From the NCBI GenBank assembly GCA_947496235.1, contig CANMCE010000003.1, forward strand, positions 248,001 to 312,000: 64,000 bases of DNA, written 5' to 3'. Below the pieces are notes generated by a model. The model was not told the DNA's origin, made no database searches, and saw only the letters and a program-made list of their open reading frames with translations. Below, one piece after another: positions 1,486-25,708 of the stretch (position 1 is its first letter; each line of letters begins with the position of its first letter). Both the position numbers and the translations under genes were made by a program. The stretch comes from an uncultured Glaciecola sp. (lineage in GTDB: Bacteria > Pseudomonadota > Gammaproteobacteria > Enterobacterales > Alteromonadaceae).

Positions 1486-1550
1486 AGACTTTTAGACGTC
1501 TAGAAGTAAATACTGGTAAAATTTTATTTTCCCCCCTACAATAGACGACT
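1486..1550 (+). promoter_or_regulatory. metK promoter region with tandem MetJ boxes
   Basis: Three consecutive 8-bp units lie at 1486-1509: AGACTTTT, AGACGTCT, AGAAGTAA. The central one is an exact match to the AGACGTCT MetJ consensus. A further unit, AGACGACT (7 of 8), lies at 1543-1550. A possible -10 TACAAT is at 1537-1542 with a weak -35 TGGTAA at 1514-1519 (17-nt spacer). MetJ with S-adenosylmethionine represses metK in enterobacteria; the same control is inferred here. metJ itself is not in the window. The rest of the roughly 300-bp epd-metK gap shows no gene. Confidence 0.72.
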
Positions 1551-19576: not shown

Positions 19577-20863
19577 CTAGTTCTTTAAAGTAGCAAACAT
19601 ATGCGCTTTTAGTGCTTGGTAATCATTTACCATTTCTACCGCCAATGATTTTTTGGCGGAAAATTCAGCCAATACTTTAGGCACAGTGATTGGCTGACCT
19701 AGTACATTTTCTACTGTTTCTTTGAATTTTGCAGGGTGTGCGGTACCAAGAAATACACCTACTTCATCATCTTGCAGTTGTTTGGTCAATGTTCGGTAGC
19801 TAATAGCGGCATGAGGCTCTGACAAATACCCTTGCTGTTGTAACTGACGCATAGCGACCTGAGTATATTCTTCGTCTACAGCTTCACCCGTTAACAAACC
19901 TTTGTCAAAATAGCCTTGCTCAATAAGCGCTTCAATACGTGGCCAATTATTCGGTTGCGCCACATCCATTGCATTCGACATAGTCGGAATGGTCTTTTTC
20001 GGTGCCCACTCGCCGCTAGCTAAATAACGAGGTACTGTATCATTGCTGTTAGTGCCAGCAATGAAGCGCTTAATGGGGAGACCCAACGTTTTTGCAATGA
20101 TCCCAGCGGTTAAATTACCAAAGTTACCACTAGGAACGGCAAAAACAGCTTTTTCTCTTTCATCTTCAGGTAATTGGGCTACAGCTTCAAAGTAGTAGCA
20201 TACCTGGGCGATCAATCGGCTTATATTGATTGAGTTTGCCGAATTAAGATGTAGACCTTCACGTACGTCGGGATCATCAAATGCTGTTTTCACGAGTTGC
20301 TGACAAGCATCAAAATCCGACTCTATCGCAACCGTGTGGATGTTATCCCCTAATGTTGTAAATAACTTTTCTTGCAATGGGCTAATTTTGCCTTTAGGAA
20401 ATAAAATCACCACATTGATGTTGTCTATGCCGTGAAAAGCATGAGCTACAGCTGCACCAGTATCACCAGATGTTGCGGTTAAGATGGTGATTGGCTGTCC
20501 TTTACTAATATGCGCCAGTACCTGCGCCATGAAACGCCCACCGAAATCTTTGAACGCTAAGGTAGGACCATGAAATAGCTCAAGACAATAAGTATTCTCG
20601 TTTACTTTATTTAACGGCGCAGGGAATGTGAAGGCGGCTTTAATCAGAGGTTCCAGTTCAGTAACGGGAATTTCATCGCCAATTAAATGAGAAATAATTT
20701 TTACACTACGCTCAACCAAAGGTAAAGCCAATAACCCTGCAATATCTTGCATAGGGGTTATTTTATCGGGGAAATACAGTCCTTGTTGTTTTCCTAAGCC
20801 TTTTCTTACTGCTTCTGCAAAACTGACTGTGTCGCTTGCATCTTTTAGATTTACTAATTTCAC
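19577..20863 (-). CDS. thrC: Threonine synthase
   Basis: PLP enzyme converting O-phosphohomoserine to threonine and phosphate. The 428-residue length matches the E. coli type. Visible motifs are FHGPTLAFKDFGGRFMAQ near residue 103 with the PLP lysine, TATSGDTGAAV near residue 136 and the phosphate-binding VPSGNFGN near residue 249. It is the last gene of thrABC, 27 nt after thrB. Confidence 0.98.
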   Translation of the reverse strand: MKLVNLKDASDTVSFAEAVRKGLGKQQGLYFPDKITPMQDIAGLLALPLVERSVKIISHLIGDEIPVTELEPLIKAAFTFPAPLNKVNENTYCLELFHGPTLAFKDFGGRFMAQVLAHISKGQPITILTATSGDTGAAVAHAFHGIDNINVVILFPKGKISPLQEKLFTTLGDNIHTVAIESDFDACQQLVKTAFDDPDVREGLHLNSANSINISRLIAQVCYYFEAVAQLPEDEREKAVFAVPSGNFGNLTAGIIAKTLGLPIKRFIAGTNSNDTVPRYLASGEWAPKKTIPTMSNAMDVAQPNNWPRIEALIEQGYFDKGLLTGEAVDEEYTQVAMRQLQQQGYLSEPHAAISYRTLTKQLQDDEVGVFLGTAHPAKFKETVENVLGQPITVPKVLAEFSAKKSLAVEMVNDYQALKAHMFATLKN

Positions 20864-20890: not shown

Positions 20891-21838
20891 TTATTCAGAA
20901 ATAACACGAGTACCAGCAGTATCAATGTTACATATATGGCTGAAGCCATCAGCATTTTGTACGTAATGCTGGTTTAACCAATTTTCAATATTCTTTGCTG
21001 CGTCTAGGTTGTCAGTCACCGCAAAAACTGTTGGTCCAGAGCCTGAAATACCAAAGGCCAAGCCTTGTTGACTTGCAACATAATCACGGGCTTTATCAAA
21101 CATGGGCAATAACGATTTACGGTATTTTTCGGCAATCACATCTGTCATAACCTTGGCAGCAATTTGGCGATCACCACGATATAAGGCATCAACGAACACC
21201 GCCATTTGTCTTCCAAACGTTAAGCATGTAGACATATCATATTGTTTTGGCAAAATTTTTCTAGCAGCAGCAGTAGATACCGACAAACCTGAATAACTGG
21301 CGATCCAATACCAATCATCGAATACAGGCAAAGATAATGCCACCGCATCCTCAAGACCTGACATTAATGTCATACCGCCAATATAACTTGGTGCTACGTT
21401 GTCGTAATGAATACTGCCGCTAATTTGCCCTTCTAATTCACCCATCATTAATAATAGCGTATTTTCATCGAAGGGCTTATTTGCATGAGCATTTAACGCA
21501 TAAAAAGCAGCCACAATCGAACTAGCACTAGAGCCAAGTCCACTGCCAATTGGCAGGGCTTTATGCAAATGCATAGCGACTTTTAAAGGCGCATGTCCAT
21601 GCTTCACTAGTGCATTTTGAAAGTATTCAAAACACTGGGTGACTATATTGTTTTGGGTACCACTGGGAAGGCGATCGCTAAATCGCCCATCCACGGTTAG
21701 GGCAAATGTATCTGCGTCCGTAACTTCAACCCAATCCCCAAGTTGAGTTCCATCTATTGGCGCTAACGCTGCACCTAAAATATCAAAACCAAGGCTTACA
21801 TTACCTATAGAAGCAGGTGCAAATGCTCTTGTTGCCAT
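20891..21838 (-). CDS. thrB: Homoserine kinase
   Basis: GHMP-family kinase that phosphorylates homoserine for threonine synthesis. The 315 residues contain the ATP-binding motif LPIGSGLGSSASSIVA near residue 92 and the C-terminal GHMP loop FGISGSGPTVFA near residue 258. The start codon directly follows the thrA stop with no gap, implying translational coupling. Confidence 0.97.
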   Translation of the reverse strand: MATRAFAPASIGNVSLGFDILGAALAPIDGTQLGDWVEVTDADTFALTVDGRFSDRLPSGTQNNIVTQCFEYFQNALVKHGHAPLKVAMHLHKALPIGSGLGSSASSIVAAFYALNAHANKPFDENTLLLMMGELEGQISGSIHYDNVAPSYIGGMTLMSGLEDAVALSLPVFDDWYWIASYSGLSVSTAAARKILPKQYDMSTCLTFGRQMAVFVDALYRGDRQIAAKVMTDVIAEKYRKSLLPMFDKARDYVASQQGLAFGISGSGPTVFAVTDNLDAAKNIENWLNQHYVQNADGFSHICNIDTAGTRVISE

Positions 21839-24304
21839 TTATTGATACTCCAATTCATTTGGGATGGTACGCAATAAATCAGCAAACACGCCCGCAGCGG
21901 TCACAGTAGCGCCCGCTCCGTAACCACGAATAACAAATGGAATCGGTGAATAATAAGTAGAATGTATTGCCAGCGCATTTTCACCGTCTTTTACCGCCGC
22001 CAATGGATGCGTCTGCTCGACAGCTTGAATACTCACTTTACATTGACCGTCTTTGATCGAGCCAACATATCTAAGGACTTTATTTTCAGCCTGAGCTTTG
22101 CTCACCATGTCAGAAACTTTTTGATCTAACGCCGGTAGGTTAGCCATAAATTGTGCGACGTCGCCGCTAGCATCAAAATCATCAGGCAAAACCGATTCAA
22201 TTTTAATATCATCTAGTTCAAGGCGCATACCTGATTCACGCGCCATGATTAGCAACTTTCGCGCTACATCCATGCCACTTAAATCATCACGAGGATCAGG
22301 CTCGGTAAAGCCTTTTTCTTTAGCGACTTTGGTTGCCTCAGACAAGGTTAATCCTTCATCAAGCTTACCAAATACAAAAGATAGCGAGCCAGACAAGATC
22401 CCTTCGAAGGTTTCAAGTTTGTCACCTGCTAGCACAAGCTTTTGTAAGTTATCAATGACAGGCAGACCTGCGCCAACCGTAGTTTCATACAAGTAGCAAC
22501 GCTTCACGTTTTGGGCAGCTTTATGTAGCTGTTGATAATATTTATAACTGGCCGTATTGGCTTTTTTATTCGGCGTAACAACGTGGAAGCCAGCTTCTAA
22601 CATATTGATGTATTGATCAGCCACCTCTTGACTGCTGGTACAATCAATAATCACTGGATTAGTTAGGCTGTTGGTGCGCACAAATTCAGCTACTGCGTCT
22701 ACTGAAAACGCCTCTTTGCTGGCCGCTAAGTCTGCTTTCCAATCTTGGTCAATGGCAATACCACCGGCCTTAAGTAAATTAGCCTTGCTGTTGGCGATAC
22801 CATAAACAGTGAGTTTTATATCCTTAGTTGCAAGTAGTTTTTGTTGCACATGCATTTGTCTAAGTAGTTCTTCGCCTACAGTGCCACAGCCCACAAAAAA
22901 CACATCCAATGGTTGATTGGAGGAGAAAAAGTTTTGATGTATAACTTTCACTGCTTTGCGCGCTTTACTGTTTTCAATCACAGTTGAAATAGAACGCTCT
23001 GATGACCCTTGCGCGATCGCTACATTATTGACTCTTGCTTGGGCCAAGGCATTAAAAAACTTCGCTGCCATACCTTTAGATTCTCGCATACCATCGCCCA
23101 CTAAGGTGACTATGGCTAAATGCTTGCGTACTTCAATTGGCTCTAATAAGTGGTTGCTCAATTCAAGGGCAAAACTTTCTTCTAATAATTCTTGTGCTTT
23201 CTCTGCATCTTTGTTTTGAATACAGAAACTAATGCTATATTCCGACGAACTTTGAGTAATCAGGGATATAGAAATATTGCCTTTTGAAATCACATCAAAA
23301 ATGCGGCTCGCCATGCCTACCATGCCCTTCATGCCAGGACCGGATACATTAAACATCACAATATCTTCAAGGTGCGAAATACCCTTAACACTGGTCCATT
23401 TTTCACTGGGTTCGTTAGATATTAGCGTACCGGGTGCTGCGGGATTCAAGGTATTACGAATTAAACAAGGAATTCCAAATTGCGCGATAGGACCAATAGT
23501 TTTTGGATGTAACACCTTAGCCCCAAAATAAGATAACTCCATGGCTTCTTGATAGGTAAGTTTATCCAGTAATACCGCACCTTCTACTTGATTGGGATCA
23601 GCATTGTAAACACCGTCAACATCAGTCCAGATTTCACAGCAGTTCGCATTAATACAAGCAGCTAAAATTGCCGCTGAATAATCAGAACCGTTGCGGCCCA
23701 ACGTCACCTTTTCGCCTAGCTCATTCACAGCGACAAAGCCTGGCATTACCAAAAACTCGCTACCGTCTGTGTTTATTTCGCTGCAACGAGCGCGGCTTTC
23801 TGATAACAAGGCTAAACTATCTAAATAGTCCCCTTCTGCGATAATGTAATCTACTGGATCGATTATTTTATTGCTTATGCCCTTGGCGGATAAGATGGCG
23901 CTAAAAATATTGACACTGACGTATTCGCCCATGCTTAAAATGCCAGCAGTAACTTGATCTGGGCAGCTTTTTAGTAGACTAATGCCCTGTAGTTGTTGCT
24001 CTAAATTATCAAGTTTATTTTGTATATATTCTGCTAAAGGAGGGTAATTAAAGTTATCGAGAGTGTCATTGAGTTCTTTTGCAATACCTTTTAAGGTCAT
24101 AGTCAATTTAGCAAAAAGTTCACCATAATCTTGATTCTTATGCGCTTGTTCACATAGTAAAGACAGCGCATTAGTGACCCCTTTGGGCGCAGATAAAACT
24201 ACCGCAGCCCCTTCTGCCTGATGCGTTTGTTGGCTGATATCAAATACTCGCAAGTACCGTTGAGCATCGGCCAAAGACGAACCACCAAACTTCAACACTT
24301 TCAT
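21839..24304 (-). CDS. thrA: Bifunctional aspartokinase / homoserine dehydrogenase I
   Basis: Catalyses the first and third steps from aspartate to homoserine, the branch point for threonine and methionine. The 821-residue protein has the aspartokinase domain ([12 protein letters not shown] start, [10 protein letters not shown] near residue 205), tandem ACT domains (about 320-460) and a homoserine dehydrogenase domain ([13 protein letters not shown] near residue 470, and [12 protein letters not shown] with the downstream catalytic region near residue 640). Length matches E. coli ThrA (820). The leader peptide, attenuator and MetJ-like box upstream suggest control by Thr/Ile supply and by methionine status. 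Confidence 0.97.
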
Positions 24305-24358: not shown

Positions 24359-24390
24359 CAAAAAAGCCCGCTATATTTGCGGGCTTTCGT
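24359..24390 (-). terminator. thr operon attenuator
   Basis: On the minus strand, stem AAAGCCCGC and GCGGGCTTT (24379-24387 and 24363-24371) with a 7-nt loop and six T residues. It lies between the leader peptide and thrA, the classical position of a transcription attenuator controlled by ribosome stalling on Thr and Ile codons. Confidence 0.88.
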
Positions 24391-24410: not shown

Positions 24411-24476
24411 CTAACGACCGCCCTCAATAGAGGTGGTAATAATAATCATGTCGTTAGTCATTAGAATTGTTTTCAT
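24411..24476 (-). CDS. thrL: thr operon leader peptide
   Basis: A 21-residue frame reading MKTILMTNDMIIITTSIEGG plus a final Arg, with four Thr and five Ile codons. That composition is expected of a leader peptide sensing threonyl- and isoleucyl-tRNA. It ends 21 nt before the attenuator stem. No ribosome binding site precedes the ATG. If the TTGACA at 24506-24511 is the -35, the transcript would begin at or very near the ATG and be leaderless. Confidence 0.85.
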   Translation of the reverse strand: MKTILMTNDMIIITTSIEGGR

Positions 24477-24482
24477 GGCGCC

Positions 24483-24511
24483 AATTTGCCGTATAGACGT
24501 CTAAATGTCAA
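24483..24511 (-). promoter_or_regulatory. thr promoter with MetJ-type boxes in the spacer
   Basis: On the minus strand there is a perfect -35 TTGACA (24511-24506) and, 17 nt on, a weak -10 CAAATT (24488-24483). The spacer holds AGACGTCT (24495-24502), an exact MetJ consensus box inside the 10-bp palindrome TAGACGTCTA. The flanking 8-bp registers, 24487-24494 and 24503-24510, each match 5 of 8. Repression by MetJ is an inference; the -10 assignment is tentative. Confidence 0.6.
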
Positions 24512-24931
24512 TACCGAACCTCGATAAAATCAGATAAATATGATCATATCAATTTAACTTGGGAAGTTTTCAATGTTTTGGAATTCAATGTTTTCAATAA
24601 GTTAGGAAAAATGACAGATTTTTTCTGATCAAAATTTTCATTTTGGGTGGGAATTTTTATATTTTAATTGGGGATTCTGATCTTCATATTTATTGTAAAT
24701 AAGCGCTTCGCAATCCAAATTAATTTGGCAAAAAAAGTTCCCCACTCATTTTACGGCTGAACAATTTGATAGATTTAATCATTGTCAGACTTTTTTACAA
24801 ACCACGTCAAATAAATCAATAAATGATTGAAAAAATTAGCTTTATTTTTTGGCGTAATTATTGCCTTAGAATCTATACGGCAATTTTTTAATCACTTTTG
24901 CTTTTAATATCACATAACAGAAAGGAATCGA
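24512..24931. other. AT-rich intergenic region between thr operon and PEP-CTERM gene
   Basis: No open frame of note. It contains a short direct repeat TTCAATGTTTT near 24570-24600, the second copy of a 12-bp element (TCTATACGGCAA at 24872-24883) whose inverted partner lies at 24486-24497, and a candidate sigma-54 promoter at 24849-24865. Otherwise very AT-rich, consistent with promoter and spacer DNA. Confidence 0.6.
24849..24865 (+). promoter_or_regulatory. Candidate sigma-54 (RpoN) promoter of PEP-CTERM gene
   Basis: TTGGC (24849-24853) and TTGC (24861-24864) place the invariant GG and GC exactly 10 nt apart, as in -24/-12 promoters. It is 67 nt before the ATG. Several PEP-CTERM genes in other proteobacteria are controlled by the PrsK/PrsR system with RpoN. 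The middle of the site (GTA for ACG) departs from consensus. Confidence 0.55.
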
Positions 24932-25708
24932 ATGTTCACAAAAACATCTAAACTAAATCTTTTAAAATATGGTGCTGCGGCGCTTTTATTTTCTGCCTTT
25001 ACAACTCAAGCTGCGCCTATTCCCATCGACTTATCAACATGGCAATCAGATGGCACTACAACTTGGCAGCTCCAACCTGGGAACGATACTGTAAGACAAA
25101 CCCAAAACACAGATCCCACTATCTTTTTTAAAGACGGTGAGAATGCTCAGGGCACTCAAATATCTGGTCGCATTTCCAGTAATTACGGCGGAGACGACGA
25201 CTTTATTGGTTTTGTTTTGGGATATCAAGACAACGAGCTTACTTCTGCTAGTGCAGAGTATATTTTGATAGATTGGAAGCAGGGAGATCAATCCTTTCCT
25301 GGTCTAGGTCAAGCGTTCGACGGCTTGGCAGCTTCTGTTGTAACAGGTGCTGCAGCTGATTCGGAATTTTGGACACATACAGGTGCTGTTAGCGAAGTTA
25401 CCAGAGCAACTACTCTAGGTTCAACTGGCTGGGTCACCGGTACCGAGTATTTGTTTGACATAGTTTTTACTTCAAATTTGATACAAGTATACGTTGATAA
25501 CGTACTTGAGTTGAACTTTACTGCTGCCGATGCTGGACTTGCTTCATTTGGTGATGGTTCGGTAGGTTTTTACAACTACTCTCAACAGAACGTATTATAT
25601 GCTGGCCTAACAGAACAGCAGGTTGTTCCTACAGTTTCTACCCCTGCCGCACTTGGCTTGTTTGTAATGGGTATCGCAGGTCTTGCGTTTAGACGCAAAA
25701 CAGCGTGA
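24932..25708 (+). CDS. PEP-CTERM-type secreted protein with thrombospondin C-like domain
   Basis: A 258-residue secreted protein. Signal peptide about residues 1-27 (ending TTQAAP). The central domain carries DDDFIGFVLGYQ and YILIDWKQG, the pattern of the thrombospondin C-terminal lectin-like fold. The C-terminus is a sorting signal: VSTPAALGLFVMGIAGLAF then RRK, a PEP-CTERM variant with STP in place of the usual EP motif. It would be processed by an exosortase, which is not in the window. AAAGGAA precedes the ATG. The partner gene on the other strand carries a similar C-terminus. Confidence 0.85.
   Translation: MFTKTSKLNLLKYGAAALLFSAFTTQAAPIPIDLSTWQSDGTTTWQLQPGNDTVRQTQNTDPTIFFKDGENAQGTQISGRISSNYGGDDDFIGFVLGYQDNELTSASAEYILIDWKQGDQSFPGLGQAFDGLAASVVTGAAADSEFWTHTGAVSEVTRATTLGSTGWVTGTEYLFDIVFTSNLIQVYVDNVLELNFTAADAGLASFGDGSVGFYNYSQQNVLYAGLTEQQVVPTVSTPAALGLFVMGIAGLAFRRKTA

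Follow-up and report, generated by a model that had tools for sequence, protein, structure and literature searches.

The window, a stretch of 64 000 nucleotides from the genome of an uncultured Glaciecola species, carries on its reverse strand the thrABC operon, preceded by a leader-peptide frame, an attenuator and a promoter whose spacer contains an exact match to the MetJ consensus. The same window contains metK, the identity of which was confirmed by NCBIfam, and the MetJ operator of that gene served as a yardstick from within the genome. The features are as follows.

19577–20863 (−): thrC, threonine synthase (NCBIfam)
20891–21838 (−): thrB, homoserine kinase (NCBIfam)
21839–24304 (−): thrA, bifunctional aspartokinase I/homoserine dehydrogenase I (AK-HSD), the sole one in the genome (NCBIfam)
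24360–24388 (−): attenuator terminator, AAAGCCCGC-AAATATA-GCGGGCTTT plus U-run, conserved in 13 sequences
24411–24457 (−): leader hairpin, CTAACGAC...GTCGTTAG
24411–24476 (−): thr leader peptide MKTILMTNDMIIITTSIEGGR, from sequence; ATG at the predicted +1
24483–24488 (−): −10 hexamer CAAATT, 17 nt past the −35 hexamer
24487–24494 (−): downstream register ATACGGCA, 5/8
24495–24502 (−): exact MetJ box AGACGTCT, central register, 8/8 match to consensus
24503–24510 (−): upstream register TGACATTT, matching at 5/8 and sharing bases with the −35 hexamer
24506–24511 (−): −35 hexamer TTGACA; TTGAC is invariant in 35/35 type-1 genomes (defined below)
1486–1509 (+): metK MetJ operator, AGACTTTT-AGACGTCT-AGAAGTAA, scores 6, 8 and 5

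The thr promoter and leader

Read along the reverse strand from 24511 to 24411, the order of elements is TTGACA, the 17-nt spacer TTTAGACGTCTATACGG, CAAATT, GGCGCC and the leader frame. The initial annotation had reported an exact MetJ box at 24495–24502, identical to one before metK, within the 17-nt spacer that follows a perfect TTGACA, flanked by registers matching at only 5/8 and followed by a leader peptide and attenuator. These elements were all recovered: the metK copy lies at 1494–1501, exactly 17 nt separate TTGACA from CAAATT (24488–24483), both adjoining registers scored 5/8, and the leader frame (24476–24411) is followed by a terminator hairpin with a U-run. The annotation was silent on the poor −10 hexamer, which matches TATAAT at 3/6 and is missed by a simple promoter scan, and on the spacing that places the predicted +1 at the leader ATG; in most relatives lacking the box, the −10 hexamer is CATTTT. 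A MetJ operator is expected to comprise at least two neighbouring boxes in register; the three registers of the thr promoter score 5, 8 and 5, compared with the 6, 8 and 5 of the metK operator in the same genome and up to 6, 8 and 6 in relatives, although the match of the upstream register is partly forced by the TTGACA that it overlaps.

The leader peptide contains four Thr and five Ile among its 21 residues, and comparable Thr/Ile-rich leaders, together with the conserved terminator, are found throughout the relatives. As regards a mutually exclusive antiterminator, further hairpins are present in the leader besides the terminator and compensatory changes are few. Comparison of the leader with Rfam gave no family match.

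A divergent gene (24932–25708, +) adjoins the thr promoter; its product probably carries a signal peptide and has, at its C terminus, a VSTPAALGLFVMGIAGLAFRRK tail that resembles a PEP-CTERM sorting signal. The region upstream of it (24849–24931, +) contains a sigma-54-like TTGGC-N7-TTGC at 24849–24864, and a 12-mer from the thr promoter, TCTATACGGCAA (24486–24497, −), for which 0.01 copies are expected in the window, is repeated there at 24872–24883 (+).

MetJ boxes across the genome

The genome (4.42 Mb) contains 23 exact copies of AGACGTCT, with about 0.0016 expected per 300 bp. For each copy, the highest-scoring set of three adjacent 8-bp registers was taken; with a cut-off of 18/24, five of the 23 reached at least 18, the next best scoring 16. 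All five are intergenic and lie upstream of metA, metK, metF/metJ, serA and thrA, which are known or predicted MetJ targets. Two adjacent boxes scoring at least 13/16 were intergenic only at the same five places, with two further matches inside open reading frames. Raw 16-bp matches were as frequent in the genome as in its reversed control (10 in each), so the evidence comes from where the matches lie rather than from their number. The serA and metF/metJ pairs are the strongest two-box matches in the genome, and the thrA operator, with flanks of 5/8 each, ranks near the bottom of the five well-flanked operators by two-box score. The serA pair, AGACGTCT-AGATGTCT (8 + 7), lies 73 nt upstream of the gene at C3:176066–176081 (L123:2067–2082).

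MetJ and the AK-HSD isozymes

The regulator itself is encoded at C7:72868 in the host genome and aligns with the solved MetJ over 95 residues, with the segment KKVTVSIP nearly unchanged (KKITVSIP in the solved protein); MetJ was found in 89/89 sampled genomes of the family. ThrA had been proposed as the only AK-HSD on the evidence of the window, and the search of the whole genome bears this out, the other matches to the ThrA query being a partial one of aspartokinase type (30% identity over residues 1–462) and one that is short and weak.

The initial annotation had also staked its proposal on there being no separate MetJ-controlled metL in the genome. We searched with a MetL query, a protein from the relative G151 confirmed by NCBIfam as AK-HSD II, and found no metL in the whole host genome; metL is present in 43/89 genomes of the family. 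These calls were made by a similarity threshold, the weakest accepted MetL of the family scoring 1e-128 and cross-matches to ThrA no better than about 1e-96. The choice of query matters, because with a ThrA query true MetL matches score only about 1e-85 to 1e-91 and a cut-off of E ≤ 1e-100 hides metL. In genome G319, a 392-residue open frame near metJ (C6:274893–275957) matches the homoserine dehydrogenase half of MetL and is a possible shortened metL.

Conservation of the box

Conservation in relatives, which the initial annotation had named as the check to make, was assessed in the 82 sampled family genomes with thrA, and the box proved to be kept across genera. In 35 of them, the host included (type 1), it stands at the same offset from TTGAC, is invariant or matches at 7/8, and is accompanied in 35/35 by the absence of metL. 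Another six genomes (type 2), all of which keep metL, have a box in the spacer 4 nt closer to the −35 hexamer. The remainder have no box, 30 with metL and 11 without, and in the sister genera with metL the box is mostly absent.

The type-1 spacer has a mean pairwise identity of 92% over its 17 nt in the 35 genomes, compared with 34% in the 17 nt before the −35 hexamer, 46% in the 17 nt after the −10 hexamer, and 47% among the spacers of 19 homologous promoters lacking the box. Named type-1 members include Agaribacter marinus and species of Glaciecola, Paraglaciecola, Alteromonas, Lacimicrobium, Bowmanella and Planctobacterium. The flanks on either side are improved to 6/8 in three relatives (TGACATCT-AGACGTCT-ATACGTCA, the downstream register being ATACGTCA), and others have an additional box of 6/8 or 7/8 upstream and in register (ACACGTCT or TTACGTCT).

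A ThrA tree places the sampled type-1 members and four of the six type-2 genomes in two separate clades, each with an SH-aLRT of 100. In type 2, a second box, ACAAGTCT or ACAAGTCC at 5/8 or 6/8, adjoins the first in four of the six genomes. The type-2 box, shifted by 4 nt within the same spacer, has an apparently independent origin. The box is lost in G324 and G325, both inside the main clade, and in Paraglaciecola algarum. At locus L155 (G324, Aestuariibacter sp. AA17), the entire thr leader and the box have apparently been swapped for unrelated sequence upstream of thrA.

Position of the leader ATG

Among 57 distinct box-bearing promoters with a recognized −35 hexamer, 49 have the leader ATG 5–8 nt past the −10 hexamer (35 at 6 nt and 11 at 7 nt). 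A second, stricter pattern recovered 16 promoters with the ATG 6 or 7 nt past the −10 hexamer, of which 14 lack the box and two are shared with the box-bearing set; this automatic pattern skips some genuine promoters without the box, and further ones in the family show the same geometry by eye. In the other eight of the 57, of Glaciecola and Planctobacterium type, the ATG is absent from this position and, in at least some, the leader lies further downstream. Five promoters of Glaciecola type (L139, L140, L042, L044 and L080) have ATA in place of the leader ATG after the −10 hexamer, with the box retained, and a longer distance from box to thrA, of about 345–425 nt. Inspection by eye of the leaders of Shewanella, Vibrio, Providencia, Pantoea and Aeromonadaceae found no −10 hexamer at a comparable distance.

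Since the predicted +1, by its spacing from the −10 hexamer, coincides with the leader ATG, the thr leader RNA of the host is probably leaderless. The polymerase would start on the leader AUG itself, and the ribosome would take the nascent 5′ end without a Shine–Dalgarno sequence.

Discussion

On the pattern of sequence and conservation, the box is very probably an operator for MetJ that occupies the interval between the −35 and −10 hexamers of the thrLABC promoter, through which S-adenosylmethionine would gate initiation while Thr and Ile gate elongation. When S-adenosylmethionine is plentiful, MetJ–S-adenosylmethionine dimers would occupy the central box and extend by cooperative binding to the weak flanks, one of which overlaps the −35 hexamer, and so exclude RNA polymerase from the promoter. 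When it is scarce, transcription would start at about 24476, the A of the leader ATG, and a ribosome would load on the leaderless RNA. How fast that ribosome moves through the Thr and Ile codons would then decide between termination and read-through into thrABC. In a lineage without metL, the single ThrA must supply homoserine for Met, Thr and Ile, which would make sense of this division of control.

The element might instead be a feature of the core promoter, such as the shape of the spacer, which reads AGACGTCT by coincidence and needs no repressor. Its position does coincide with the spacer, and the conserved block includes the −35 hexamer, but among the sister genera the homologous promoters have spacers of unrelated sequence (47% identity), the register of the box differs in the second clade, and well-flanked copies of AGACGTCT occur only at Met, Ser and Thr genes; we therefore consider coincidence very unlikely. 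Use of the site by a different regulator with a similar palindrome would account for a conserved segment, TAGACGTCTATACGG, that is longer than the 8-bp box. Such a regulator seems scarcely credible, however, given the exact MetJ consensus, the universal presence of MetJ in the family and the same boxes at metA, metK and metF/metJ of the host.

The MetJ site could also be real but weak or secondary, with methionine affecting thrABC little and attenuation dominant, as flanks of 5/8 on both sides and a two-box score among the weakest of the five operators might imply. This seems unlikely to us, although less so than either coincidence or another regulator, because the site is near-invariant over 35 genomes and because relatives have flanks improved to 6/8 in three cases and an extra upstream box of 6/8 or 7/8 in others.

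The relation of the box to the absence of metL is less simple. The main clade is what one would expect if ThrA had taken over and been placed under MetJ control. A general rule that loss of metL brings a MetJ box to thrA is refuted by the 11 family genomes, including Catenovulum-like ones, that have neither metL nor box, and by 25 metL-less genomes among the 26 sampled from three other families, in which the box was found before thrA in 0/26. The association of metL with the box is essentially one clade event, and on this evidence loss of metL would explain the box only in part; a Fisher test on the counts takes no account of shared descent, so its value is no measure of significance. Moreover, the six type-2 genomes keep metL, so the sharing of homoserine is neither shown as the cause nor required. 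Since some box-bearing genomes retain metL and some metL-less lineages have no box, the evidence points to rewiring in two lineages rather than a general consequence. It is reasonably probable that the family as a whole has a leaderless thr attenuator, to whose promoter a MetJ operator was added twice independently, within the spacer, placing initiation under S-adenosylmethionine and leaving elongation to Thr and Ile, and that in the larger clade this control falls on the sole bifunctional enzyme making homoserine.

In E. coli, metL is under MetJ, thrA is controlled by attenuation, and the thr leader RNA has an untranslated 5′ stretch. The locus described here resembles the E. coli thrLABC attenuator in having a Thr/Ile-rich leader peptide and then a terminator hairpin upstream of thrA, but differs in the leader ATG at the predicted +1 and in the MetJ box on the thr promoter. 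It likewise resembles the MetJ-controlled metBL operon, in that MetJ is predicted to act on the AK-HSD feeding methionine; unlike in metBL, ThrA (AK-HSD I) is the enzyme concerned, in a genome that lacks metL.

MetJ, the AGACGTCT boxes and the targets metA, metK and metF/metJ are shared with the MetJ regulon of Gammaproteobacteria (PMC3228920; PMC4239095). In the 2011 survey, metL is the isozyme under MetJ control, and thrA is no more than suggested as a stand-in where metL is missing (PMC3228920); Leyn et al. (2014) added thrABC and serA to the predicted MetJ targets of Alteromonadales (PMC4239095). The link between MetJ and thrABC is therefore already published as a prediction and is not new. 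As far as the main text of Leyn et al. was searched, it makes no mention of the location within the spacer, of a downstream attenuator, of a link with metL absence or of a second origin (PMC4239095), and these additions, the combination with the attenuator and the distribution of metL among them, seem to be new, as does the leaderless geometry. For the last of these, the nearest parallel that we found is the rnTrpL/peTrpL leader of Sinorhizobium meliloti, in which the RNA 5′ end falls on the leader-peptide ATG (PMC7298713), although it concerns Trp in an alphaproteobacterium, where the trp operon has no repression of transcription (PMC7298713). A search mostly of literature outside subscription journals yielded no description of a leaderless thr leader.

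The locus may represent the rewiring of a branch-point operon on loss of an isozyme, in which the repressor of the lost isozyme's operon comes to govern the remaining enzyme, on top of an existing attenuator. The second origin with metL retained, together with the metL-less lineages lacking the box, makes the cause testable. A leaderless leader would also raise the question of how ribosome and polymerase are kept in synchrony during attenuation without a Shine–Dalgarno sequence.
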